Assembly (NCBI GenBank): GCA_016934555.1 | Contig: JAFGSS010000034.1 | Span: 1 to 45,754, forward strand | Origin: Acidobacteriota bacterium | GTDB taxonomy: Bacteria; Acidobacteriota; UBA6911 | Direction: 5' to 3' | DNA length: 45,754 bases | Part shown: one piece after another, positions 5,205 to 37,520 of the stretch | Numbering within the stretch: the stretch's first letter is position 1 | Layout of the letters: every line of letters starts with the position of its first letter | The notes under the pieces: model-generated | The model's database searches: none | What the model saw: the letters and a program-made list of their open reading frames with translations, nothing else | What the model was told of the DNA's origin: nothing | Made by a program: the position numbers and the translations under genes

Positions 5205-6023
5205 ATGGAGATAGTTTCGGCGGTCATTCTCGGCATCATCCAGGGGCTTACCGAGTTTCTCCCCGTCAGCAGTTCCGCCCACCTCATCCTGGTCCCCTGG
5301 TTCTTCGGGTGGGAGCCGGAGGGGCTGGTGTTCGACGTCGCGCTCCACGTCGGGACGGCGCTGGCGGTCCTGGTTTTTTTCGCCCGGGACTGGGTCCGCC
5401 TGGCGCGCGCGACCGTCCTCGGCCTGAGGGAAGGAGCGCCGCTCGGAGACCCCGACCGGAAGCTCGCCTGGCTGCTGGTGGTGGGGACGGTCCCGGCCGC
5501 CGTCGCAGGCCTCTGGCTGGAGGAACTGGTAGAGGCGCGCCTGCGCTCCCCCCTCATCACGGTCTTCACCTTGGCGGGACTTGCCCTCCTCCTCTGGTAT
5601 GCCGAAAGGAGGGGAAGGCAAAGCCGCCCGTTGGAGCGCTACTCGTGGGGGGACGCCGTATGGATCGGGATCAGTCAGGCGATCGCCCTGGTTCCGGGGG
5701 TCTCGCGCAGCGGCGTCACCATGACGACGGCCCTCCTTCGGGACAGCGACCGGGTCTCCGCCGCCCGGTTTTCGTTTCTCCTGTCCACCCCGGTGATCGT
5801 GGGGGCCGGAATGCTCCAGGCGTACCGCCTCCTGGCCGCGGGCGACGGCGGAGCCGGCGTCCGGTGGACCGTGCTGCTGGCGGGGGTGGCGGCCGCGGCC
5901 GTGACCGGGTTTCTGTGCATCAAGTTCTTCCTGCGCTACCTCGAGCGCAGGAGTTTCACCCCCTTCGTGATCTACCGCCTCGTCCTGGCCGCCGTCGTCC
6001 TGGCCTTTTACCTGAAAGGATGA
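5205..6023 (+). CDS. uppP: Undecaprenyl-diphosphatase (UppP/BacA)
   Basis: Integral inner-membrane phosphatase that dephosphorylates C55-diphosphate to the C55-phosphate carrier used for peptidoglycan, O-antigen and other glycans; it often gives bacitracin tolerance. The 272 aa have multiple hydrophobic segments and both family signatures: GLTEFLPVSSSAH (residues 14-26) and PGVSRSG (164-170), which together form the active site. The start is fixed by the standard opening MEIVSAVILGIIQGLTEFLP; the Shine-Dalgarno is weak (GGGCGGGCGACGGC before ATG). It converges with rarA. Its proximity to the lipid-linked glycosyltransferase genes at 8965-12609 is notable because those are predicted to consume undecaprenyl phosphate, but they lie on the other strand and are not co-transcribed. 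Confidence 0.95.
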   Translation: MEIVSAVILGIIQGLTEFLPVSSSAHLILVPWFFGWEPEGLVFDVALHVGTALAVLVFFARDWVRLARATVLGLREGAPLGDPDRKLAWLLVVGTVPAAVAGLWLEELVEARLRSPLITVFTLAGLALLLWYAERRGRQSRPLERYSWGDAVWIGISQAIALVPGVSRSGVTMTTALLRDSDRVSAARFSFLLSTPVIVGAGMLQAYRLLAAGDGGAGVRWTVLLAGVAAAAVTGFLCIKFFLRYLERRSFTPFVIYRLVLAAVVLAFYLKG

Positions 6024-8964: not shown

Positions 8965-9945
8965 TCAGGATGAAAGGGGGCTGCGGGGCGGGTCGGGCGG
9001 CGCCTCCGAGATGCGCAGGATGATGTAGGGCGATTTCCCCTGCGATTCGAAGTACGTCCGGATCAGGAGTTCGGCCACGAGTCCCATGAAAACGAACTGC
9101 ACCCCCAGGATGAACAGGAACACGGCCAGGAGCAGGAGCGGGTTGTTGTGCGCCTTGACCTGGTTGCAATATTTGTCGTAGAGGGTGAGAAGCCCGAACA
9201 GCGTCCCCGCGGCGCAGGCCAGCAGGCCGCTGCCGCCGAAAAAGTACATCGGCTTGGTGGAGTAGCTTCCCAGCATCTTCACGGTGATCAGGTCCAGGAT
9301 CACCTTGAAGGTACGGCCGAGCCCGTACTTGCTCTTTCCCCGCGTCCGGGGGTGGTGGCGCACGGGGATCTCCGCGACCCGCGCGCCGGCCCAGGAGGCG
9401 TAGACGGGGATGAAGCGGTGCATCTCCCCGTAGAGCCGGATGTGCTCGACCACTTCGCGGCGGTAGCCCTTGAGCGTGCAGCCGTAATCGTGCAGGCGTA
9501 CACCGCCGATGCGGGAGATCAGCGCGTTGGCCAGCCGCGAGGGGAGTTTGCGCGTCAGCCACGGGTCCTGGCGCTCCCGGCGCCAGCAGCTGACGACATC
9601 GTAGCCTTCGCGCAGCTTCGCCAGCACCGCGGGGATGTCGCGCGGGTCGTTCTGCATGTCGGCGTCGGTCGGGATCAGGAGGTTGCCCTTGGCGTGGTCG
9701 AAGCCGGCGGCCATGGCCGCGGTTTGGCCGAAATTCCTGCGGAAGCGGATGACGCGGATGCGGGCGTCGCGCGCGGGAAGCCGTTCCATCCATTCGCCCC
9801 CCCCGTCGGTGCTGCCGTCGTCGATCAGGAGGATCTCGTAGGATTCGCCCGTGGCCTCCATCGTTTCGGTCAGCGCGCGGGTGAACGGCTCGAGGTTCTC
9901 GCGCTCGTTGTAGACCGGGACGATGATGGAAATCCTGTCCGTCAT
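8965..9945 (-). CDS. GT2 glycosyltransferase, polyprenyl-phosphate sugar transferase type (ArnC/GtrB/DPM1-like)
   Basis: Transfers a sugar from a nucleotide donor to a polyprenyl phosphate on the inner face of the membrane. The 326 aa begin ISIIVPVYNERENLEPF, with DDGS at residues 42-45 and the metal-binding DAD in PTDADMQNDP. They continue with the RNFGQTAAMAAGFDHA, DYGCTLKGYRREVV and RTRGKSKYG motifs of the dolichol-phosphate mannose synthase/GtrB branch. Two hydrophobic segments at the C-terminus anchor it in the membrane. The ATG at 9945 overlaps the stop of the upstream membrane protein (ATGA). With that protein and the GT39 enzyme it forms a contiguous three-gene unit. The sugar identity cannot be read from the sequence. 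Confidence 0.9.
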   Translation of the reverse strand: MTDRISIIVPVYNERENLEPFTRALTETMEATGESYEILLIDDGSTDGGGEWMERLPARDARIRVIRFRRNFGQTAAMAAGFDHAKGNLLIPTDADMQNDPRDIPAVLAKLREGYDVVSCWRRERQDPWLTRKLPSRLANALISRIGGVRLHDYGCTLKGYRREVVEHIRLYGEMHRFIPVYASWAGARVAEIPVRHHPRTRGKSKYGLGRTFKVILDLITVKMLGSYSTKPMYFFGGSGLLACAAGTLFGLLTLYDKYCNQVKAHNNPLLLLAVFLFILGVQFVFMGLVAELLIRTYFESQGKSPYIILRISEAPPDPPRSPLSS

Positions 9946-10922
9946 GAGAACTCCGTCTCCAGTGAAGCCATCTGCTCGAGATCGTTCTTGTTCCGGTAGA
10001 GGAGGTAGACGACGCCCCCCGGGAGCGAGGACAGGATGATGACGACGCTCGAGAGCACGCCGAGAGCGATGCACGAGGCGGCCGGCACTCCGACGGCGCC
10101 GAAGAGGCTCATGAAGGAATATTCCCTCAGCCCCATGCCGTTGAGGCTGATGGGGATCATGGAGATCAGGGTGATGACGGGGACGAAGACCAGGAAGAGG
10201 AAGAAGGAGAGGCGGATCCCGAGCCCCAGCGCCATGATCGAGGTGACCGAGATGACCAGGATCTGGTTGACGAAGGAGATCGCGAGCGACCCCCAGAGGA
10301 TGCCGGGGTGTTTGCCCATGATCTGGAAGGCGCGGGAGACCAGGTCGATCCTGGTCGCGACGGCGCCCAGGCGCACCCGGTGGAGCAGCCGGATCAGGAG
10401 CCGGTGCAGCCCCGGGGTGAACACCGCCGCGTTTCCCAGCACGAACAGCGCGAAAACGCTCCACAGGATGAGGGTGACGGGGATCCCGGGGACCGAGACC
10501 GGGTAAACCGTCACCGCGGCGCAGGCGAGGATCATCATGGCCAGCATCCCGGCGTCCCGGTCGAGAAACGCGGCGGCCAGGCTCTGGGCATAGCACCGGG
10601 AGGGGCGCCCCGCGTAGTAGACCTTGACGACGTCCCCGCCGATGACGGTGGGGAAGGTCAGGTTGAAGAAGAGGCCGATGCAGTAGATGCCGAACAGGTT
10701 TCCCAGGGACGGCACCGGCATCAGCGGCCGCATCAGCAATCGCCAGCGGTAGATGCAGATGAAATGGGCGACCCAGAGGAGAACGAAGCCCCCGAGCAGG
10801 TAGTCGATGCGCGCGCCCGCGAGCGCGGCGGCGAACTGCCGGAAATCGATCCGCCGGAAGATGTAGGTAAAGAACAGGATCGTGATCGCCAGCTTAGCGG
10901 CGGTAAACAGTTTTGCTTTCAT
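9942..10922 (-). CDS. UPF0104/LPG-synthase-transmembrane family protein, possible flippase
   Basis: Polytopic inner-membrane protein with about seven to eight hydrophobic segments and the family features FNLTFPTVIGGDVVKVYYAG and LISMIPISLNGMGLREYSF. This domain is the membrane half of lysyl-phosphatidylglycerol synthase/AglD-like proteins; there is no C-terminal synthase domain here, so it is the stand-alone form. The ATG at 10922 has GAGGG about ten bases upstream; a GTG at 10940 is possible. It overlaps the end of the GT39 gene by 29 bases and the GT2 gene by four. By context it may move or handle a polyprenyl-linked sugar between the two glycosyltransferases. That role is inference. Confidence 0.82.
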   Translation of the reverse strand: MKAKLFTAAKLAITILFFTYIFRRIDFRQFAAALAGARIDYLLGGFVLLWVAHFICIYRWRLLMRPLMPVPSLGNLFGIYCIGLFFNLTFPTVIGGDVVKVYYAGRPSRCYAQSLAAAFLDRDAGMLAMMILACAAVTVYPVSVPGIPVTLILWSVFALFVLGNAAVFTPGLHRLLIRLLHRVRLGAVATRIDLVSRAFQIMGKHPGILWGSLAISFVNQILVISVTSIMALGLGIRLSFFLFLVFVPVITLISMIPISLNGMGLREYSFMSLFGAVGVPAASCIALGVLSSVVIILSSLPGGVVYLLYRNKNDLEQMASLETEFS

Positions 10923-12609
10923 AAAACGGATCGCCCTCACGGCTTGCGATTTTAGAACACGATCGGTTGGATACCAAGATCAATTCCCGGCCCGGAAACT
11001 TCCCCTTGTCCAGAAGGTTGCCGAACCGGAGCGAAAAAAGGGGTCCCTGGTCCAGAACGCAGAGCTCGGCCCCCCGCCCGAGGAAGTACTCGTAATCGGC
11101 GCGGGACAGGATGCAGAAGACCCGGCCGGGCGAGCGGAAACGCTCGAGCATCCTTTCGGGCTCGGTCTCCTGGAAGATGGGGCGCTCGAGGTAGAAGACC
11201 ATGCTGGGGAGCGAGGCGCGGTAGAACCCGGCGCTGTCCCCGCCGGCGGGGTCCCAGCGCTCGGCGATCACGCGGCAGAACCCTTTCACCGGCCGCAGCG
11301 CCTCCAGGGCGGGTATGTAGGCGGCGGCCCCGAGGAGGTAGACCGACCAGAGCGCGAGCGCGAGCGCGCCGAAGCACCACCCGGGCCGACGCCGGACGGT
11401 GAAGAAGGCCACGGCGAGCGCGCCGGCCGCGAACAGCGCCGTCGGGCCGTACCGGAGCAGGGTCGGGACCGCAGGCATGAAGGCGGTGAAAACGATGGGC
11501 AGGGCCAGCGAAAGCGCCAGCATCAGGGCCGCGGCGCCGCCGTAGGCCCAGGACCAGGCGGCCCCCCGGGCTCGCACCCGTTCGAGCGCCCCGGCGATCA
11601 GGAGGGCGCAGGCGGGGTACATGGGGGCGATGTAGTACTCCTGCTTGTTCTTGGAGAGCGAAAAAACGAGGAAGGTGGCGGCAGCCCAGAAAAGGGGGAG
11701 CCCGGCCGGGGAGGAGCCGGGGGGCCCTTCGCGGCGGAGGCGCCGGAGCGAAAGGAGGGCGGCGACCAGGAGCAGGGACCAGGGAAAGAAGTCGGACAGG
11801 AAGATCGGGATGTAGTAGAGCACGCCGCGGGAGGGCCCCAGGGTCTCCGTGGCGAAGCGCCCCAGGTTGTCGCTGAGGAAGAAGGGGGCGATGTAGTCCC
11901 AGCCGTGCGCCCTCCAGACGGCCAGGTACCAGGGGAGGACCACGGCGGCGACGACGGCGGCCCCCGTAAAGGGGTACGTCTCCGCCGCTTTCCGGCGGCC
12001 GGCCGCGAGCATCCACCCCCCCAGGGCCAGCGCCGGGATGACCAGGGCGATCGGCCCCTTGGTCATGAACCCGAGCCCCAGAAACAGGTAGACGGGGATC
12101 CACCGCCCCCTGCCGCCGCGGCCGAGCGCGCGGAGGATGAAAAAGAGGGCCCCGGTCAGGAAGAACAGGAGGAAGATGTCGATGGGGAGCCGGCGCGCCA
12201 GGATGAAGATCCGGGCCGTGGTCGCCGCGACAACGGCGGCAACGAGACCCGCGCGCGGGCCGTAAAGGAGGCGGGCGCCCCCGTAGCAGAAGAGAAGGAT
12301 GCCGGCCGCCGCGAGGGCGCTCGGGAAGCGGACGGCGAACTCGCCGACCCCGAAGGCCCGGTAGGAAAGGAGGACGATCCAGTAGGTGAGGGGGGGCTTC
12401 TGGACGCGGGGCTCGAAGTTGAAGCGGGGGGCGAGGTAGTCGCCCGTGACCATCATCTCCCTCGGGGTTTCGGCGTAAAAGGCCTCGTTGGCGTCCCAGA
12501 GGGAGGAGACCCCGAGATGGACAAACCATGGGAGCATCAGCGCCGCCAGCAGCAGGGCGTGCCCAAGCGGGGAGTGGATCCAGGATGCGGGCCGGAGCGG
12601 GTTTCCCAT
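10894..12609 (-). CDS. GT39 family membrane glycosyltransferase (ArnT/PMT-like)
   Basis: Integral-membrane enzyme that uses a polyprenyl-phosphate sugar on the periplasmic face to modify lipid A, proteins or glycans. The 571 aa have a first membrane helix, then a periplasmic loop with DANEAFYAETPREMMVTGDY, the acidic catalytic-loop motif of the ArnT/PMT superfamily, then PPLTYWI, about a dozen hydrophobic segments and a soluble C-terminal region (~450-571). The ATG at 12609 lies two bases after the mutS stop. The neighbouring GT2 and UPF0104 genes suggest a complete donor-synthesis, translocation and transfer route. Whether the acceptor is lipid A, as for ArnT, or protein cannot be decided; lipid A is possible because LPS genes are in the window. 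Confidence 0.88.
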   Translation of the reverse strand: MGNPLRPASWIHSPLGHALLLAALMLPWFVHLGVSSLWDANEAFYAETPREMMVTGDYLAPRFNFEPRVQKPPLTYWIVLLSYRAFGVGEFAVRFPSALAAAGILLFCYGGARLLYGPRAGLVAAVVAATTARIFILARRLPIDIFLLFFLTGALFFILRALGRGGRGRWIPVYLFLGLGFMTKGPIALVIPALALGGWMLAAGRRKAAETYPFTGAAVVAAVVLPWYLAVWRAHGWDYIAPFFLSDNLGRFATETLGPSRGVLYYIPIFLSDFFPWSLLLVAALLSLRRLRREGPPGSSPAGLPLFWAAATFLVFSLSKNKQEYYIAPMYPACALLIAGALERVRARGAAWSWAYGGAAALMLALSLALPIVFTAFMPAVPTLLRYGPTALFAAGALAVAFFTVRRRPGWCFGALALALWSVYLLGAAAYIPALEALRPVKGFCRVIAERWDPAGGDSAGFYRASLPSMVFYLERPIFQETEPERMLERFRSPGRVFCILSRADYEYFLGRGAELCVLDQGPLFSLRFGNLLDKGKFPGRELILVSNRSCSKIASREGDPFYESKTVYRR

Positions 12610-12611
12610 GG

Positions 12612-15122
12612 CTAGAAGAGCGACCGCTGTATTTCTTCGATGACGTCTTCGGCGGAGCGTCGGCGCGGGCGTCCCGTCAGGTCGATCTCCTTTTTCTCCA
12701 GCCGCTCCAGGATCCGGTGGGCGCGCGCGAGGACCGCACGCGGCATTCCGGCCAGGCGGGCGACCTCGATGCCGTAGCTCCGGTCGGCCGCCCCCGGCAC
12801 GACCTTGCGCAGGAAGACGATCGACTGTCCCGCCTCCTCGATGGCCATGCAGAGGTTCTTGACCCCGGGGTGCACCTCGGCCAGCTTGGTCAGTTCGTGG
12901 TAGTGGGTGGCGAAAAGGGTCTTGGCCCGGTGGGTGGAGTCCTGGATCAGGTATTCGGCGATCGCCCACGCCAGGGAGAGCCCGTCGAACGTGGCGGTGC
13001 CGCGGCCGACCTCGTCGAGCAGGATCAGGCTCCGGGGGGTGGCCGTGTTCAGGATGTTGGCCGTCTCGATCATCTCGACCATGAAGGTGGAGCGCCCGCG
13101 GGCCAGGTTGTCGGAAGCCCCCACCCGGGTGTAGATGCGGTCCACGCACCCGAGCCGCGCCTCCCGGGCGGGGACGAACGAGCCCATCTGCGCCATGATG
13201 ACGATCAGGGCCGTCTGCCGAAGATAAGTCGATTTGCCCCCCATGTTGGGGCCGGTCAGGATCGCCAGCTGGTCGCCGGTGCAGTCGAGGTGGAGGTCGT
13301 TGGGGATGAAGGGACGGCTCTCCAGTTCCACCACCGGGTGGCGCCCCGCGCGGATCAGGATCTCGTCCCCGCCGGTGAGGGTCGGGCGGACGTAGTCGTT
13401 TTCGAGCGCCGAGAGCGCCAGCGCCGAGTAGACGTCCAGCTCCCCGACCAGCCGGGCGGTGGACTGGACCCGCCCCCCCTCCAGCGCGACCGACCTGCGG
13501 ATCTCCGCGAAGAGCTCCCTTTCGAGGGCGGCGATCCGTTCCTCGGCCCCCAGGACCTTTTCCTCGTAGGCCCGAAGCTCCTCGGTGATGAAGCGTTCGC
13601 AGTTGACCAGCGTCTGCCTGCGGATGTAATGGGGGGGAACCAGGTGGAGGTTGGCTTTCGTGACCTCGATGAAGTAGCCGAAGACCTGGTTGAACTTCAC
13701 CTTGAGGGAGGAGATGCCGGTGCCCTGGCGCTCCCGCGCCTCGAGCGAGGCGATGTAGCCCTTGCCGCTGTGGCGGATCGACCGCAGTTCGTCCAGTTCC
13801 GGGGAGTAGCCCGGGCGGATGACGCCCGGCTCCGCGGCCGAGGAGGGGGGATCGTCGGCGATGGCGTCTTCGATCAGCCGGCAGGAATCCTCCACCGGGT
13901 CGAGCCCCGAGCGGATCTCGCCCAGGCGGGCGGCGCCGAACTCTCCCAGCATCGGCTCCAGGGAGGCGACCGCCCGGAGGGATTGGGCCAGCGCGACGAG
14001 TTCGCGGGGATTGGCGACCCCGACACAGACGCGGCTGATCAGCCGCTCCAGGTCCAGGATCTCCCCCAGGCGGCCGACGAGGCGCCCCAGGGCGGCGACG
14101 CTCGCCGAGAGGGCCCCGACGCAGTCGAGCCGGCGCTCGAGTTCGGGCACGTCCATGAGGGGAAGCAGCAGCCGGCTCTTGAGCAGGCGGGCGCCCATCC
14201 CCGTGCGGGTCCGGTCCAGAAACGACAGCAGCGACCCTTTCCGGGAGCCGTCCAGGGTGGCCACCAGTTCCAGGTTGTTGACGGTGGAAGCGTCGAGCTT
14301 CATGAACTCGGAAGGCTCGAAGAAGCGCAGCGCCGCCACCTTCCCGAGCGCCGAGAGCTGGCTGTCGCGCAGGTAGTGGATCAGAGCGCCTGCTGCCGAG
14401 AGCGCGAGCGGCCGGCCGGCGGCGCCGAACCCGTCGAGGCTGGCCACGCCGAAATGTTCGAGCAGCATGCGCTCGGCATAATCGCGGCTGAAGACCCAGT
14501 CGTCGAGCGGGCTCGCCACCCACTGCTCGGACCACTCCAGCCGGAGTTTCCGGCCCAGATCGTCTCCCGAATTTTCCGGCAGGAGGAGTTCCTTCGGGCC
14601 GAAGCGGGTCAGTTCGTCGATGGTCCTGGGCCAGGCGTCCTCCCCGAGGAATTCCGTGGCGAGAAAATCGGCCGTCGACAGGTCCATGAAAGCGAGCCCC
14701 ACCCCCTGGGGGGCCGCCCAGAGGCTGCCCAGGTAATTGTGGTCCTTCGGTTCCAGCAGCATCTCCTCCACGACCGTCCCGGGGGTCAGGACCCGGGTGA
14801 CCTCGCGCTGGACCAGCTTTTTGGTGCTCCGCGGGTCTTCCACCTGCTCGCAGATGGCGATCTTGTGCCCCTTCTTCATCAGCCGGGCGACATAGCCGTC
14901 GACGGAATGGTGGGGGACTCCGCACATGGGGATGGGGGCGCCGCTCTTGTCCCGGTTTCGCGAGGTGAGCGTGATTTCCAGCTCGCGGGACGCCAGGACG
15001 GCGTCCTCGTAAAACATCTCGTAGAAGTCGCCCAGGCGGAAAAAGACGAGCTTGCCGGGGAAGCGCCGCTTGACCTCGTGGTACTGCTTCATCATCGGGG
15101 TGAGGTCTTCGTTTGCGCTCAT
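12612..15122 (-). CDS. mutS: DNA mismatch repair protein MutS
   Basis: Recognises mismatches and small loops and recruits MutL. I start at the ATG at 15122, giving MSANEDLTPMMKQYHEVKRR, the normal MutS opening; the open frame extends 43 codons upstream but that stretch overlaps the promoter of the divergent tsaB. Length is 836 aa. The mismatch-reading Phe33-X-Glu35 is in GDFYEMF. The connector, lever and clamp domains follow, then Walker A GPNMGGKST (624-632), the Walker B LILLDEVGRGT region and the ATPase signature TFDGLSLAWA. The C-terminus carries a helix-turn-helix-like tail. It is the first gene of a seven-gene minus-strand run. No mutL is in the window. Confidence 0.97.
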   Translation of the reverse strand: MSANEDLTPMMKQYHEVKRRFPGKLVFFRLGDFYEMFYEDAVLASRELEITLTSRNRDKSGAPIPMCGVPHHSVDGYVARLMKKGHKIAICEQVEDPRSTKKLVQREVTRVLTPGTVVEEMLLEPKDHNYLGSLWAAPQGVGLAFMDLSTADFLATEFLGEDAWPRTIDELTRFGPKELLLPENSGDDLGRKLRLEWSEQWVASPLDDWVFSRDYAERMLLEHFGVASLDGFGAAGRPLALSAAGALIHYLRDSQLSALGKVAALRFFEPSEFMKLDASTVNNLELVATLDGSRKGSLLSFLDRTRTGMGARLLKSRLLLPLMDVPELERRLDCVGALSASVAALGRLVGRLGEILDLERLISRVCVGVANPRELVALAQSLRAVASLEPMLGEFGAARLGEIRSGLDPVEDSCRLIEDAIADDPPSSAAEPGVIRPGYSPELDELRSIRHSGKGYIASLEARERQGTGISSLKVKFNQVFGYFIEVTKANLHLVPPHYIRRQTLVNCERFITEELRAYEEKVLGAEERIAALERELFAEIRRSVALEGGRVQSTARLVGELDVYSALALSALENDYVRPTLTGGDEILIRAGRHPVVELESRPFIPNDLHLDCTGDQLAILTGPNMGGKSTYLRQTALIVIMAQMGSFVPAREARLGCVDRIYTRVGASDNLARGRSTFMVEMIETANILNTATPRSLILLDEVGRGTATFDGLSLAWAIAEYLIQDSTHRAKTLFATHYHELTKLAEVHPGVKNLCMAIEEAGQSIVFLRKVVPGAADRSYGIEVARLAGMPRAVLARAHRILERLEKKEIDLTGRPRRRSAEDVIEEIQRSLF

Positions 15123-15202
15123 CTTGTTCTGCTTGCCGACCTGCCGGGAGCCGCTTCGGTTGCCCGCGCCTGTGGCCGGGAGCGGAATCCCGCCACAAAA
15201 CC

Positions 15203-15231
15203 TTGAGGTTAAAGAGGCTGCAGTATATAAT
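15203..15231 (+). promoter_or_regulatory. Sigma-70-type promoter for tsaB-rimI
   Basis: TTGAGG (15203-15208), a 17-base spacer and a perfect TATAAT (15226-15231). Transcription would start near 15238, leaving a leader of only about 12-25 bases. It is the best -10 match noticed in the window and lies in the mutS/tsaB divergent gap. Confidence 0.7.
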
Positions 15232-15250
15232 CCGTATCCTGCGATTGTCA

Positions 15251-15964
15251 ATGACGATGCCCATGAGCGATACCCCCGGAATACTGGCTTTGGACACCTC
15301 CTCCGCGTGCGGCAGCGTGGCGCTGCTCAAGGGGGGGGATCTGCGTGCGGAGGTTCGGACCCGCTCCGGAGGCACCCACTCCGTGTCGCTCCTCCGTTCG
15401 ATCGAGTTCCTGCTCGATCGCGCCGGCTGGGGACCCGGGGACCTGGGCCTGGTCGCCGCAGGCATAGGGCCGGGATCCTTCACCGGGATCCGGATCGGCA
15501 TCAGTACGGCCCTCGGCCTTTCCCAGTCGCTCGGCATACCGTTTGCGGGGGTTTCGGGCCTCGACGTGCTGGCCTGCCAGGCCGCGTGGCTCGGGGGGGA
15601 TATCGGCGTGGCCGTGGACGCGCACCGGGAGGAGGTCTATTACGGCGAATACACCTGCCGCAGCGGCCGCCCGGCCCGATCCGGTCGGCCGGCGCTCTGG
15701 AAGATATCGGAGCTTGAACGCGCGCTCGCGGGCAGGCATTTATATATTGTGAGCGATCTCGGCGCCGCCCCGTGGGGGGGGAGGAGTGTGAAAGCGGCGG
15801 ACGGATGGCCGCGGCGGGTCCCGGCAGACCCGTTCCTGGCGGCCGGTGTCGGCCGCCTGGCGCTCGGACGCAGAAGATACTGGCAAACGGGGGACGCGCC
15901 GGCGGCGGAACCCCTGTACATAAGGCCTCCCGATGCTGTCAGAAACAAAAGCCGCGGACGCTGA
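15251..15964 (+). CDS. tsaB: tRNA threonylcarbamoyladenosine biosynthesis protein TsaB
   Basis: Non-catalytic partner of TsaD in making the universal t6A37 modification on ANN-decoding tRNAs. Key features are ILALDTSSACGSVAL at the N-terminus and GIGPGSFTGIRIGISTALGL, the ASKHA-fold loop typical of TsaB; the TsaD metal-binding histidines are absent. Length is 237 aa from the ATG at 15251. In-frame ATGs at 15257 and 15263 are equally possible, and the last leaves more room after the predicted transcription start near 15238. No clear Shine-Dalgarno is seen at any of them. It overlaps rimI by 32 bases, a common pairing. tsaD, tsaE and tsaC are not in the window. Confidence 0.93.
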   Translation: MTMPMSDTPGILALDTSSACGSVALLKGGDLRAEVRTRSGGTHSVSLLRSIEFLLDRAGWGPGDLGLVAAGIGPGSFTGIRIGISTALGLSQSLGIPFAGVSGLDVLACQAAWLGGDIGVAVDAHREEVYYGEYTCRSGRPARSGRPALWKISELERALAGRHLYIVSDLGAAPWGGRSVKAADGWPRRVPADPFLAAGVGRLALGRRRYWQTGDAPAAEPLYIRPPDAVRNKSRGR

Positions 15965-31606: not shown

Positions 31607-33925
31607 ATGAACCGGATTAACAAGCTTCTCCTTCACGCCATCGCCGCGCCCTTCGCCATTGCGCTGGTGGTCCTGACCTTTGTCGTCACGGCGCGCGAGT
31701 TCGGTTCGCTGGCCGAACTGCTCCTGTCCAGGAGCGCCTCCCTCGGTGTCCTTGCCAGGATCGCGGGTTCGATCCTCCCCGCCATTCTCATCTTTTCCCT
31801 GCCGCTCTCCTTTCTGATCGGGGTGCTCGTCGGCATGAGCGGGCTTTCGGGCGAAAGCCAGGTGCTGGCGCTTCGGGCCTGCGGCGTCCCCCTCCGGCGC
31901 CTGCTCGTCTTCATCCTGGTCCTGGGCGGCCTCGTCGGCGCCGCCACCGCGGCGCTCTCGCTCTGGGTCATGCCGCGCACCAACGACTGGCGCCGCCAGG
32001 TGGTCGCGGAGATCGAACTGTCGGCCGGGACCACCCGCATCCAGCCGAGGGTGTTCTACGAGGACATCCCGAAGATGGTCGTGTACCTTGACGACGTGAG
32101 CGCGGACCGGCAGCGCGGGAGCCGCATTTTCCTGGCCGACAGCACCGATCCCCGGGCTCCCAGGGCCATCGTCGCCAGAAGCGTCCTCTGGATGGCGGAT
32201 GCGGCCGACCGTTCGATGCAGCTGCACCTCGAACAGGGGGCCAGCTATGCCACCGACCCGGAGCATCCGGACCGGGACAACGTAAGTCATTTCAAATCAA
32301 CAGATATATCCATAGAACTGAAGAAGCGGGACCCGGTCGGGGCCCGCCCGGCAAAGGTCGAAGAGCTGGGCAGCTTCGAACTCCTGCGGCGCGCCATGAC
32401 AGACGGAGCGAATTCAAACGTTAAGGAATTACTTGAAATACATCGTCGAATTGCACTTCCTTTAACAGTTATACCATTTGCGCTCCTGGGCCTTACGCTC
32501 GGGGTCAGCAACCCGAAATCGGGGCGTACCTTCGGTCTGGCCCTCAGCCTCCTGGCGGTGATCCTCTTCTACATGCTCTTTTTCAACGGACTCCGCCTGG
32601 CGGGGGTCGGCAGGATCCCCCCCTGGATGGGGGCCTGGGGCGCCAACATCCTCCTCACCCTGGCCGGCTGGATGCTGCTCGGGAGGATGGAAAAGACCTT
32701 CGGACTGGGTCACTGGCTCGGGCGCCTTTCCTCCCCCCTGCTCCCGCGCCGGCGCCCGGGAGCCCCCCCGGGCCGCCTCGTCAGCATGGACTACGCGCTG
32801 CTGAAGTGGGCGGGGCGCGCGGTGCGGCGGCTGTTCCCCCGCATCCTGGACCTTCACATGCTCCGCGGCTTCTCGGGCTTCTTCCTCTGGTCCCTGGCCT
32901 CCTGCGCCTCGCTCTTTCTGCTCCTGACCCTGTTCGAGTTGATGGACGACGTCATCAAGAACGGCATCCCGACCCTCTCGGTCCTGGATTACCTCTTCTT
33001 TCTTACACCGCAGATCCTGATGTTCGCCATCCCGGTTTCGGTGCTCCTCGGCATCCTGATCCACTTCGGAATCCTGGAAAAGAACTCGGAGATCACGGCG
33101 CTCAAGGCCGGGGGGTGGAGCCTGTACCGTCTGGCGGTGCCGATCCTCGCGGCCGCCTGCGTGCTGTCCCTGGGCCTCTTCGTGCTCCAGGATTACGTAC
33201 TCCCCTACGCCAACGACCGGCAGGACGGGCTGCGAAACACCATCCTGAACAAACCGCCCCGCAGCGCGCGCCGGCTGGAGCGGAAATGGATCCTCGGCGA
33301 GGGGGGCAGGATCTACAACTACGAGTATTTCGACGAAAACAAGGATGCCTTCGTGGACCTCAACGTCTACGACGTGGACTTCGACGCGGTCCGCATCCGG
33401 CGCCGGATCCACGCCTCGAGCGCCCGGATCCGACCCGACGGCTTCTGGACCCTGACCGACGGATGGAGCCGAAACTACGATGCCGGCGAATCCGCCTTCG
33501 AGACCATCCGCACGGCGACGGAGCGTTTCCCGGAAAAGGCCTCCTATTTCAAGAGGGAGATTTTCTCGCCCCGCGAGTCCTCCAAGCTGACCTACCTGGA
33601 GCTGGCGCGCTACATCCACTACCTAAAGCAGGCGGGCTACAACGCCATGGAACTGCAGGTGGAACTGCACAAGAAGGCGTCCTTTCCCCTCAGCTGCCTG
33701 GTCATGGCGCTCGTGGGAATCCCCTTTTCCTTCGCGGCGGGCAACCGGGGGGCGTTTTTCGCCATCGGCATCAGCGTCGCCATCGCCATAGCCTATTGGG
33801 GAGTTTCGGGGGCGTTCGAGGCGATGGGGGCCTACGGGATCCTGCTGCCGATGCTCGCGGCCTGGGCCCCCAACCTTCTCTTCGGCGCCGCGGGATGCAT
33901 CCTCTTACTGAAGCTCCGCACCTGA
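31607..33925 (+). CDS. Fused LPS export permease LptF-LptG
   Basis: Inner-membrane permease of the LPS transport machine, working with LptB, LptC and LptA. Most bacteria encode LptF and LptG separately; here one 772-aa protein carries both. The first half (~1-375) is YjgP-type: N-terminal helix, a periplasmic beta-jellyroll around 120-260, then ALPLTVIPFALLGLTLGVSN and further helices. A linker near 380-393 leads to the second half (~394-772), with FLFFLTPQILMFAIPVSVLLG, the EKNSEITALKAGG coupling region, another jellyroll and SFPLSCLVMALVGIPFSFAAGN. There is no Shine-Dalgarno before the ATG at 31607. Codons ~225-240 and ~264-291 are unusually AT-rich. The gene ends four bases before the convergent xerD stop. 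Confidence 0.92.
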   Translation: MNRINKLLLHAIAAPFAIALVVLTFVVTAREFGSLAELLLSRSASLGVLARIAGSILPAILIFSLPLSFLIGVLVGMSGLSGESQVLALRACGVPLRRLLVFILVLGGLVGAATAALSLWVMPRTNDWRRQVVAEIELSAGTTRIQPRVFYEDIPKMVVYLDDVSADRQRGSRIFLADSTDPRAPRAIVARSVLWMADAADRSMQLHLEQGASYATDPEHPDRDNVSHFKSTDISIELKKRDPVGARPAKVEELGSFELLRRAMTDGANSNVKELLEIHRRIALPLTVIPFALLGLTLGVSNPKSGRTFGLALSLLAVILFYMLFFNGLRLAGVGRIPPWMGAWGANILLTLAGWMLLGRMEKTFGLGHWLGRLSSPLLPRRRPGAPPGRLVSMDYALLKWAGRAVRRLFPRILDLHMLRGFSGFFLWSLASCASLFLLLTLFELMDDVIKNGIPTLSVLDYLFFLTPQILMFAIPVSVLLGILIHFGILEKNSEITALKAGGWSLYRLAVPILAAACVLSLGLFVLQDYVLPYANDRQDGLRNTILNKPPRSARRLERKWILGEGGRIYNYEYFDENKDAFVDLNVYDVDFDAVRIRRRIHASSARIRPDGFWTLTDGWSRNYDAGESAFETIRTATERFPEKASYFKREIFSPRESSKLTYLELARYIHYLKQAGYNAMELQVELHKKASFPLSCLVMALVGIPFSFAAGNRGAFFAIGISVAIAIAYWGVSGAFEAMGAYGILLPMLAAWAPNLLFGAAGCILLLKLRT

Positions 33926-33929
33926 CGCT

Positions 33930-34817
33930 TCAGGCCCTCGGGTGGTATTTGCGGTAGACGCGCTTCAGGCGCTCGCGCGTGATGTGGGTATAGATCTGCG
34001 TCGTCGAAATATCCGCGTGCCCCAGCATGACCTGGACGGAGCGCAGATCGGCGCCGTTTTCGAGCAGGTGGGTGGCGAAACTGTGCCGCAGCATGTGGGG
34101 GGAGAGGGTTTTCCGGATCCCGGCCCGGCGGCCGCACTCGCGTACTATTTTCCAGAAGCCCTGCCGCGTCATGGCGCCCCCGCGGCGGGTGACGAACAGA
34201 TAGGGGCTCCGGCGCTTCCCGAGGATCGCCGGCCGTGCCTTCCGCACATACTCCCTCAATTGATCGAGCGCGGCCGCACCGACCGGGACGAGACGCTCCT
34301 TGTTCCCCTTGCCCGTGCAGACGAGGACGCCCAGATCGAAATCGATTCCGGCTAGCGCCAGCCGGACCAGCTCGCTGACGCGCAGCCCCGAGGCGTAGAG
34401 CGTTTCGAGCATCGCCCGGTCGCGGCTCCCGCGGGGGGTCGCGGCGTCGGGCGCGCACAGCAGCGCCTCCACCTCGGTGCGGTTGAGAAACCGGGGGAGC
34501 GGTTTGCGGGCGCGGGGGGTCTCGAGGTGTTCGGTGGGATCCGCCTCGATGATGCGGTCCCCCACAAGGAAGCGGTAGAAGCCGCGGATGGCGTTGCACG
34601 CCCGGGCGGTGGAGCGCGGACTCAGCCCCCCGTCGAGCAGGCGCTCCATCCAGCGGGCGAGGTCGTCGTGGGAGAGGGTCTCCGGCTCCCGGCCGTACTC
34701 CCCGGCAAACGCATACAGCTTTCCGAGGTCGCGGGCGTAGGCGGCGACGGTGTTGTCCGCCAGGCCCTTTTCCACCCGCAGGTAGGCCGTAAATTCACCG
34801 ACCAGGTTCCGGTTCAT
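33930..34817 (-). CDS. xerD: Tyrosine recombinase XerC/XerD family
   Basis: Resolves chromosome dimers at dif sites with a partner recombinase. From the ATG at 34817 it has 295 aa. The N-terminal SAM-like domain (~1-90) starts [20 protein letters not shown]. The catalytic domain has all six active residues: Arg146 (GLRVSELV), Lys170 (TGKGNKER), His240 and Arg243 ([12 protein letters not shown]), His266 ([10 protein letters not shown]) and nucleophile Tyr275 (IYTH). The chromosomal XerD type is favoured by length and by SHDDLARW-like and LPRFL motifs, but XerC cannot be excluded. It overlaps murJ by four bases and shows no phage genes nearby, arguing against a mobile integrase. Confidence 0.88.
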
Positions 34818-36430
34818 CGTCCCTTGCGCCGGAAACCGCCCGCCAGGCGGGTCATTTCCCCGGCTTCCTCCACTCTGAACAGCCCGAGCAGCGGCACGAG
34901 CACCGCCAGAGCCGCCATTATGGCCGCCCCGAGGCGAAAAAGCAAAGGGAGGGCGCCGGGGCCCGGCAACACGAGCCCCGCCGCCCCGTGAACCGCCAGG
35001 GCTATCCCCCCCATCGCCGCGGAGGCGAGCGCGATGCGGAGGCAGGCGCCCCCGGCGCCCTCCTTTCCGCGGGCGGTCCCCCGGGGGAGGATGCGCCCGA
35101 GATGGCGCGAGAGCAGCGCGAAATGGAGCCACGAGGAGAGCGAGGTGGCCAGCGGCAGGCCCAAAAACCCGAGGGGCCGGATCAGCAGGAAGCTCAGGGC
35201 GATCTTGACCGCGACCGCCACAAGGCTCAGGCGGACCGGCGTCTTCGTGTTTTCGAGCGCATAAAAGGCCGGCGTGAGGATCTTCACGGCGGAAAATGAA
35301 AAGAGACCCAGGGTGTAGAAGAGGACGACGCGGCTCGTCGCCAGCGTGTCCGCCTCCAGGAAGGCCCCCCGCTGGTACAGGAGCTGCACGATCTCCCCGC
35401 GGAAAAGGAGGAGGCCGGCCGTGGCGGGAAAGAGGAGGCAGGCCGACAGCCTCAGCGCGGAGCCGAGCGCGGGCCCGATGCGGTCGCGCATGCCGCGTGC
35501 GGCGAACTCCGAGACCGCCGTCATGGTCGCGGTCGCCACGGCCACCCCGATGAGGCCTATGGGGAGCTGCATCAGCCGGAATCCGTAGCCGAGCCAGGAC
35601 ACGGGGCCGTCGCCGTAAAGGGAGGCGAGCTGGCTGTCGACGACGATGCTGATCTGGGTGGCCGAGAGGCCGAGGACGGCGGGGAGCGCCAACCGCCCGA
35701 TGGCGCCGAGATCCGGGTCGGAAAACCCGAAATCGAGGCGGAAGCGGTAGCCGAGCGCCCGCGTCGGCGGGACCATCACCAGGAACTGGCCGGCGCCCCC
35801 GACGACGGCGCCCACGGCCATGGAGACGATGGGGTCGAGCCCCCAGCCCGGCATCAGGGGGCTGAGCAGGACCGCGGCCAGGATGCAGGAGACATTGAAG
35901 ACCGAGGACGCCAGCGCCGGGAGAAAAAAGCGGCCGCAGGCGTTGAGCACGGCCATGCCCACGGAAGCCAGGGACACCGAGAGGAGGAAGGGGGACAGGA
36001 TGCGCGTCATCTGGGCCGTCAGCTCGAACTTTGCCGGGTTGTCCCGGAATCCCGCCGCCAGCATCCAGACCATTCCCCGGGACCCGAAGTAGATGCCGAG
36101 CGTGACGGCGCCCAGGATGAGGAGCAGCGCGCTGACGAGGCGGTTGACCAGGATCCAGGCCCCTTCCCTCCCCCCCCCTGTCAGGCGCCGGATGAAGGCG
36201 GGCACCAGGGCGGCCGAGAGTACTCCCTCGGCGAAAAGGTCCCTCAGCATGTTGGGGATCCGGTAGGCGATGTAGAAGGCGTCGGTGAAGGAGCCGGCGC
36301 CGAAATAGCGGGCCAGGACCATCTCGCGCACCAGCCCCAGGACCCGGCTGATGGCGATGGCGGCGCCGATGCTGCGCGTCCGGTGCGGGATGTCGGCGCC
36401 GGGCGGGACGGGTGTCGCGTCACTGTTCAC
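34814..36430 (-). CDS. murJ: Lipid II flippase MurJ
   Basis: MOP-superfamily protein moving lipid II across the inner membrane for peptidoglycan synthesis. I place the start at the GTG at 36430 because AAGAGG lies five bases upstream and the length (538 aa) is then typical; upstream ATGs would overlap the divergent lpxD start. The sequence contains [40 protein letters not shown] and [16 protein letters not shown], the standard MurJ N-terminal signature, and about 14 hydrophobic segments. It is divergent from lpxD with a gap of about 50 bases and followed directly by xerD. Confidence 0.93.
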
Positions 36431-36442
36431 TACGGCCTCTTC

Positions 36443-36472
36443 TTGACGGATGCGGGCCTCTAAGTCTACCAT
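36443..36472 (+). promoter_or_regulatory. Promoter candidate for lpxD
   Basis: TTGACG (36443-36448) and TACCAT (36467-36472) with an 18-base spacer. Transcription would start near 36479, about four bases before the lpxD ATG at 36483, implying a leaderless or nearly leaderless message. The -10 overlaps the alternative ATG at 36471. Confidence 0.4.
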
Positions 36473-36482
36473 GTCCCTCGCC

Positions 36483-37520
36483 ATGAAGCTTTCCCAGATT
36501 GCCGAGAGAATCGGGTGCCGGATGGTGGGCCCGGACGCCGACATCGTCCGCGTGGCCGGCATCGAACAGGCCGGGGCGGGGGACTTGACCTTCGTCTCCA
36601 ACCGGAAATACATCCGTCACATCCCGAGCACGCGGGCTTCCGCCATCATCCTCGGGGAGGATATCCCCGCGGTGGAGATCCCGAGTCTGAGGACGGACGA
36701 CCCCTATCTCGCCTTCGCGCGCGCCCTGGAACTCTTTTTCGAGCCCTGCAGGCCGGAACCGGGGGTCCACGCCACGGCCGTGGTGGCTCCCGGCGCCCTC
36801 CTCGGCCCGGAAGTCTCCGTAGGCCCCTACGCCGTCGTCGGGGAGCGCTGCCGCGTCGGCGCAGGCACGGTGATCCACCCCCACGTGGTCCTCTATCCAG
36901 GCGCGGAAATCGGTCTCGGGTGCGTGCTCCATTCGGGGGTCGTGGTGCGCGAAGGGTGCCGGATCGGCGACCGCGTGGTGCTGCAGAACGGGGTGGTGGT
37001 CGGCGGGGACGGCTTCGGTTTCGCCCCGACCCGGGACGGGGCCTGGCACAAGATTCCCCAGACGGGGAGGGCCGTCATCGAGGACGACGTCGAGGTGGGG
37101 GCCAATTCCACGATCGACCGCGCCGCCGTCGGGGATACGGTCATCCGTTGCGGGGCGAAGCTGGACAACCTCGTGCAGGTGGGGCACGGGGCCGAGGTGG
37201 GAGCCTGCTCGGTGCTGGCCGCGCAGGCGGGCCTGGCGGGGTCCACGCGCCTCGGCAGGGGGGTCATGGTGGGCGGACAGGCGGGATTCGCGGGACACCT
37301 GGAAGTGGGGGACGGCGCCGTCGTCACCGCCCAGAGCGGCACCTCCCACGACGTGGCGGCCGGGAGCGCCGTCTCGGGTTCCCCGGCCTTCGCGAGCGCC
37401 GCCTGGCTGCGCGCGTCGGCCGCTTTCGCCCGGCTGCCGGACCTGGTGAAGAAGGTGCGGGCGCTCGAGGGGGAGCTCCGGGCCCTGCGCGCCGGCCGGG
37501 GGAGCGAAAAAAATTCATAA
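36483..37520 (+). CDS. lpxD: UDP-3-O-acylglucosamine N-acyltransferase LpxD
   Basis: Third step of lipid A synthesis, adding the second primary acyl chain from acyl-ACP. From the ATG at 36483 it has 345 aa: an N-terminal uridine-binding domain (~1-100, containing GAGDLTFVSNRKYI), a left-handed beta-helix of hexapeptide repeats (~100-320) and a C-terminal helix (~325-345). Catalytic His235 is in NLVQVGHGAEVG, and GGDGFGFAPTRDG and IEDDVEVGANSTIDRA are strongly conserved in LpxD. An in-frame ATG at 36471 is less likely given the predicted -10. No Shine-Dalgarno is seen at either. No other lpx gene is in the window. Confidence 0.94.
   Translation: MKLSQIAERIGCRMVGPDADIVRVAGIEQAGAGDLTFVSNRKYIRHIPSTRASAIILGEDIPAVEIPSLRTDDPYLAFARALELFFEPCRPEPGVHATAVVAPGALLGPEVSVGPYAVVGERCRVGAGTVIHPHVVLYPGAEIGLGCVLHSGVVVREGCRIGDRVVLQNGVVVGGDGFGFAPTRDGAWHKIPQTGRAVIEDDVEVGANSTIDRAAVGDTVIRCGAKLDNLVQVGHGAEVGACSVLAAQAGLAGSTRLGRGVMVGGQAGFAGHLEVGDGAVVTAQSGTSHDVAAGSAVSGSPAFASAAWLRASAAFARLPDLVKKVRALEGELRALRAGRGSEKNS

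Follow-up and report, generated by a model that had tools for sequence, protein, structure and literature searches.

Three genes on the minus strand of the stretch of DNA analyzed here (45,754 nt, hereafter the window) lie at 8965-12609 and encode a GT39/PMT_2 GT-C glycosyltransferase that is ArnT-like (10894..12609, 571 amino acids), a UPF0104 (PF03706) membrane protein of the MprF flippase-domain type (9942..10940), and a GT2 polyprenyl-phosphate sugar synthase that is ArnC/GtrB-like and has a C-terminal membrane part (8965..9945, 326 amino acids). On balance, we favor reading the trio as a transmembrane glycosylation system of three components, in which an MprF-fold translocator takes the position of the flippase. 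Gene order, overlap, conservation, linkage across phyla, and fold are direct results of the analysis, and the flippase step of UPF0104, which we infer, is the somewhat more probable reading of its role. The window is one entire contig of an Acidobacteriota metagenome-assembled genome (MAG) of 3.25 Mb in 233 contigs, 96.6% complete.

The three genes overlap or abut, as the original prediction had described with the right coordinates and family names. The UPF0104 gene overlaps that of GT39 by 47 nt if translation begins at the GTG at 10940 (332 amino acids) and by 29 nt if it begins at the ATG at 10922 (326 amino acids), and it shares 4 nt (ATGA) with the GT2 gene.

UPF0104 is predicted to have the MprF flippase-domain fold

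The UPF0104 protein matches PF03706 with an E-value of 3.4e-34 (119.1 bits, curated cut-off 33.4) and TIGR00374 with 48.9 bits (cut-off 43.2), and NCBIfam names the family 'flippase-like'. When the UPF0104 alignment was searched against the sequences of solved structures, MprF was not among the matches, and fold comparison alone revealed it. The original prediction had named structure prediction as a check, and the model, built on a 65-sequence alignment, reaches a pLDDT of 88.5 and a pTM of 0.85. The top five Foldseek matches of this model are all MprF structures (E 1.7e-3 to 7.6e-3), and VIA-align gives Z scores of 21.2-23.0 over 295-300 residues against MprF, compared with 5.2 for the next unrelated row; identity across the fold is 10-16%. 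As modeled, UPF0104 has the fold of the MprF flippase domain. The MprF of Pseudomonas aeruginosa is a promiscuous scramblase that passively moves many lipids (PMC11980842), and the common fold alone does not prove the substrate of UPF0104. A second, distant UPF0104 (28% identical) is encoded in the same genome on a short contig (L071:3297-4265), with no glycosyltransferase called beside it.

GT2 and GT39 are relatives of ArnC and ArnT

The GT2 protein (PF00535, E 2.5e-34) matches the solved ArnC structure 9hwj over residues 4-312 with an E-value of 1e-61 and the GtrB-type sll0501 more weakly (E 8.6e-38), and it carries a DADMQ motif at residue 94. For GT39 (PF13231, E 1.3e-25), the single match among solved structures is ArnT 5ezm (E 1.3e-28). 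Both proteins stay under the equivalog cut-offs, with 212.8 bits against the 529 needed for the NCBIfam ArnC profile and 152.9 bits against 567 for the ArnT profile NF009784. Judged by sequence, GT2 and GT39 are relatives of ArnC and ArnT and not their equivalogs, and by homology a polyprenyl-phosphate sugar synthase and a GT-C transferase are encoded together. The 96.6% complete genome contains no ArnA; the best match scores 149.4 of 777 bits, covers profile positions 3-290 only, and lies in a 314-residue frame. Because the ArnC and ArnT cut-offs are missed and ArnA is lacking, the sugar is probably not 4-amino-4-deoxy-L-arabinose (Ara4N), and the aminoarabinose pathway was ruled out on the lack of ArnA. 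The logic of donor synthesis, translocation, and transfer that had been read from the locus appears sound, with GT2 resembling ArnC, GT39 resembling ArnT, and UPF0104 predicted to have the MprF fold.

UPF0104 recurs beside GT2 genes in other phyla

The neighborhood sample comprises 67 named UPF0104 loci outside the window's own family, and genes within 300 nt are regarded as adjacent. A GT2 relative is adjacent at 17 of the 67 loci and on the same strand in 17/17, and GT2 genes reach a density of 0.431/kb in this interval versus 0.007-0.019/kb at 300-6000 nt from UPF0104, which is an approximately 30-fold difference. The control queries (mutS, rarA, trmH, and uppP) are adjacent at 0 loci. Several loci are close kin, and the 17 therefore represent roughly eight independent cases. 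Eleven of the adjacent GT2 proteins are ArnC-type, with 42-52% identity to the window GT2, and are found in Nitrospirae, Deltaproteobacteria, Vampirovibrio, and Planctomycetes, including Gemmataceae, while the other six are more distant (27-31% identity) and occur, for example, in Bacteroidota and Dehalococcoidales. The order GT39-GT2-UPF0104 is found in Nitrospirae (L138, L149) and Vampirovibrio (L179), and the order GT2-UPF0104-GT39 in a deltaproteobacterium (L155), so that the full set, with the acidobacterial order included, occurs in three different gene orders.

These results bear on the explanation that the clustering is coincidental or neutral, with UPF0104 carried along in the mutS operon as a passenger. 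The adjoining operon genes are unrelated housekeeping genes, and one or more members of the trio are missing from several genomes, both of which fit a passenger; the GT2 enrichment, which spans several phyla and different gene orders and consists of same-strand cases throughout, makes neutral clustering already unlikely, and we give it very little credence.

Several neighborhoods have further features. In Desulfobulbaceae (L142:6912-9008, with a similar layout at L161), a UPF0104 gene is followed by a UPF0104 fused to a PD40 beta-propeller and then by an ArnC-type GT2. In Vampirovibrio, mutS lies approximately 3 kb downstream of GT39-GT2-UPF0104 (L179:3196-12516), echoing the acidobacterial mutS neighborhood, and approximately 3 kb downstream of GT2-UPF0104 at another locus (L175:292-7830).

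Conservation of the trio in Acidobacteriota

The window's own family (f1) comprises 15 genomes (G000-G014), and the trio is intact in 10 of them (G000, G005-G012, and G014), with G010 counted as intact although its GT39 runs off the contig end. The original prediction had proposed recurrent association across genomes as a test, and the trio passes it within the family, as UPF0104-GT2 adjacency does in other phyla. The five remaining genomes show different states: in G003, a mere stub of GT2 is left, which reads into the UPF0104 frame; UPF0104 alone is left between mutS and yqeC in G001 and G004; and G002 has a solitary UPF0104 in a different context. In G013 (L043:5606-6019), GT2 has an in-frame gap (residues 91-281) that leaves a 137-residue frame beside an intact UPF0104, and GT39 is shortened to its C-terminal part. 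The named relatives are likewise Acidobacteriota MAGs, and single cases of loss may reflect assembly error.

Among the sister families of the class, the trio is also found in f6 (G019) and f4 (G017, split over two contigs). UPF0104 lies inside the block in f1, f6, and f4, and downstream of the pair in f3 (G016), where the order is GT2-GT39-UPF0104. GT39 is directly followed by UPF0104 in G045 and G043. The scoring used on the GT2 tree requires six or more changes in UPF0104 adjacency, a count that is approximate because L179, where the UPF0104 match falls below threshold, was scored as absent. With weak support, the in-operon UPF0104 proteins group together and separately from the copies that are dispersed in the sister families, and f1, f6, f3, and f4 are joined at 81/66 once two long-branch rows are dropped. 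A single origin of the in-operon UPF0104 proteins is not established by this weak branch, and f1+f6+f4 alone stays unrejected (p-AU 0.112). PF03706 is found in 57/60 relatives, and the bare presence of UPF0104 in a genome was therefore dropped as evidence. Two dispersed UPF0104 genes of sister families (L055:5936-7911 and L059:6053-7992) overlap or abut a GalE/UDP-sugar epimerase-like gene, again a link to sugars.

Flanking genes of the trio

The gene order on the minus strand is mutS > GT39 > UPF0104 > GT2 > yqeC > trmH-like > rarA. The mutS gene (12612..15251, minus strand; PF00488 and further MutS domains), whose stop at 12612 is abutted by the GT39 start, is a conserved upstream neighbor that marks the syntenic site and stands outside the mechanism. 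The original prediction had a nearby uppP supplying the carrier lipid; uppP (5205-6023, plus strand) is convergent with rarA and therefore belongs to a separate transcription unit, so it is not operon-linked and was ruled out as a member of the system. MurJ, LptF/LptG, and LpxD genes at 31607-37520 show that envelope and lipopolysaccharide functions are present in the window.

Flippase candidates and the evidence against a dedicated translocator

No GtrA (PF04138) or EmrE-type SMR (PF00893) gene was found in the window's genome, nor was PopT (PF04018), so that, as far as the gene content indicates, the flippase slot is without a classical occupant. The original prediction had held that a separate GtrA- or EmrE-like flippase serving this pathway would speak against UPF0104, and the genome has no gene of either kind. 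The operon contains no small EamA/SMR-type ArnE/F flippase; the EamA matches in the genome lie in frames of 306-434 residues, except for one sub-cut-off match in a 77-residue frame. Among the relatives, GtrA is found in 27/60, including several trio genomes, and none of these matches lies at a mutS-linked GT39-GT2 locus. Whether genomes lose GtrA and UPF0104 reciprocally was also considered; no clear pattern emerges, as several trio genomes have GtrA.

Several observations weigh against a translocator dedicated to this pathway. Six sister families (f2, f5, f7, f9, f10, and f11) keep GT39-GT2 without UPF0104 between them, with gaps of 11-300 nt where measured and eight such loci downstream of mutS; UPF0104 is therefore a frequent yet not obligatory member of the block. 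Linkage of GT39 to UPF0104 is by itself weak (1/67 adjacent and 4 within 1.5 kb). Conversely, UPF0104 is intact in G001, G002, G003, G004, and G013 despite the loss or truncation of its partners at the locus, and it is under purifying selection in the pairs measured, with a ratio of nonsynonymous to synonymous substitution rates (dN/dS) of ~0.16 for G004-G002 (dN 0.27/dS 1.66) and ~0.13 for G013-G010 (dN 0.18/dS 1.40). UPF0104 is therefore useful without its neighbor genes, which suggests a broader lipid-scrambling role. The two-domain EamA genes, MATE, and the window's own MurJ are further flippase candidates, and in the proposed glycolipid flippases HexF and GpgF, loss of the protein still leaves the glycolipid being made.

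The main competing explanation casts UPF0104 as a general scramblase for phospholipids or carrier lipid, co-transcribed with the glycosyltransferase pair, that does not carry the sugar-lipid and instead, for example, returns undecaprenyl phosphate after release by GT39 or balances bulk lipids. Its persistence under selection without partners, the occurrence of the GT39-GT2 pair without it, the many lipids scrambled by MprF (PMC11980842), and the lack of PopT all agree with such a role. However, three DedA/VTT proteins encoded in the genome could recycle the carrier lipid, and in several phyla adjacency is highest at GT2 genes of the polyprenyl-phosphate type, a peak not expected from a bulk-lipid role. 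We regard this explanation as rather unlikely, though a serious contender. UPF0104 could also serve GT2 or GT39 as a membrane anchor or activator, with translocation by EamA, MATE, MurJ, or a flippase of another, unknown kind. Other transporters are present in the genome, and accessory membrane subunits of undecaprenyl-phosphate-sugar synthases are known, GacJ being one described in PMC8035078; but GT2 already comes with an ArnC-like membrane part at its C terminus, and the modeled fold of UPF0104 is that of a lipid translocator, which leaves a mere membrane partner quite improbable.

Proposed mechanism and significance

In the three-component system that we favor, GT2, by homology, would load a sugar onto undecaprenyl phosphate at the inner face of the membrane. 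UPF0104 would then bring this lipid-linked sugar across to the outer face, as its fold, its genetic linkage, and the lack of GtrA and SMR genes suggest. In doing so it would probably act as a passive scramblase of rather low specificity, with the partner enzyme determining its substrate. The ArnT-like GT39, again by homology, would pass the sugar to an outside acceptor, possibly lipid A. A hint at lipid A comes from G004 (L091:5879-8659), where a relocated GT39 orthologue (55%) adjoins an LpxL-type lipid A acyltransferase gene. If the sister families need translocation, it must be supplied by their own UPF0104, GtrA, or another protein; one flippase can serve several glycosyltransferase pairs, as described for CflA (PMC8035078).

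Little direct evidence exists on the passage of polyprenyl-phosphate sugars across membranes, and for MATE-type ORF14 and SMR-type candidate transporters, direct proof of flipping is reported to be missing (PMC11127046). The trio offers a concrete, testable candidate in which an MprF-fold protein is tied to ArnC/ArnT-like enzymes in several phyla and in varied order. If this is true, the MprF fold would be extended from phospholipids to sugar carriers. More tentatively, UPF0104/MprF-fold proteins may be dedicated and widespread polyprenyl-phosphate-monosaccharide translocators in several bacterial phyla and archaea; on this wider and doubtful proposal, UPF0104 might occupy the position that GtrA, Wzx, or ArnE/F proteins have in other systems.

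Comparison with known systems

Among solved structures, GT2 is nearest to ArnC and the GT-C enzyme to ArnT, and the donor-flip-transfer logic is common to the trio and the ArnC-ArnE/F-ArnT system. Unlike that system, in which the translocator is the EamA/SMR-type ArnE/F, the trio has UPF0104, its genome is without ArnA, and its two enzymes score far under the equivalog cut-offs. A membrane-linked GT2, a flippase, and a GT-C enzyme are likewise combined in GtrA-GtrB-Gtr and in the Gram-positive multi-component systems described in PMC8035078, where the flippase types named for transmembrane glycosylation include GtrA and Wzx; the trio differs from GtrA-GtrB-Gtr in that its genome has no GtrA and the unrelated MprF-type family would fill the slot. 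MprF itself is similar in fold (Z 21-23), and PF03706 is named after the lysylphosphatidylglycerol synthase transmembrane region, whereas the window UPF0104 is without the lysyl/alanyl-phosphatidylglycerol synthase domain.

HexSDF of Clostridioides difficile and GpgSDF of P. aeruginosa resemble the trio in that each is a glycolipid operon of three genes that combines a stand-alone MprF-like flippase and a glycosyltransferase, and GpgF itself is annotated as UPF0104. They make diradylglycerol or phosphatidylglycerol glycolipids and include a deacetylase, whereas the trio would use a polyprenyl-phosphate sugar and a GT-C transferase. In archaea, Makarova et al. (2015; PMC5898192) related UPF0104 (arCOG00899) to MprF, found it fused to the GT2 protein AglD and neighbored by PMT/STT3-like and AglD-like genes, and proposed flippase activity, predicted to act on lipid-linked saccharides, for all COG0392/UPF0104 proteins. 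A flippase role, which the original prediction had taken to be new, was thus already predicted in 2015, is implied by the NCBIfam name, and is proposed for HexF and GpgF; beyond these studies, we found little literature on UPF0104. Unlike the archaeal arrangement, the trio is bacterial and consists of separate genes with ArnC/ArnT-type enzymes, and the present analysis contributes this bacterial version and its distribution, together with the comparison of folds and the counter-evidence.

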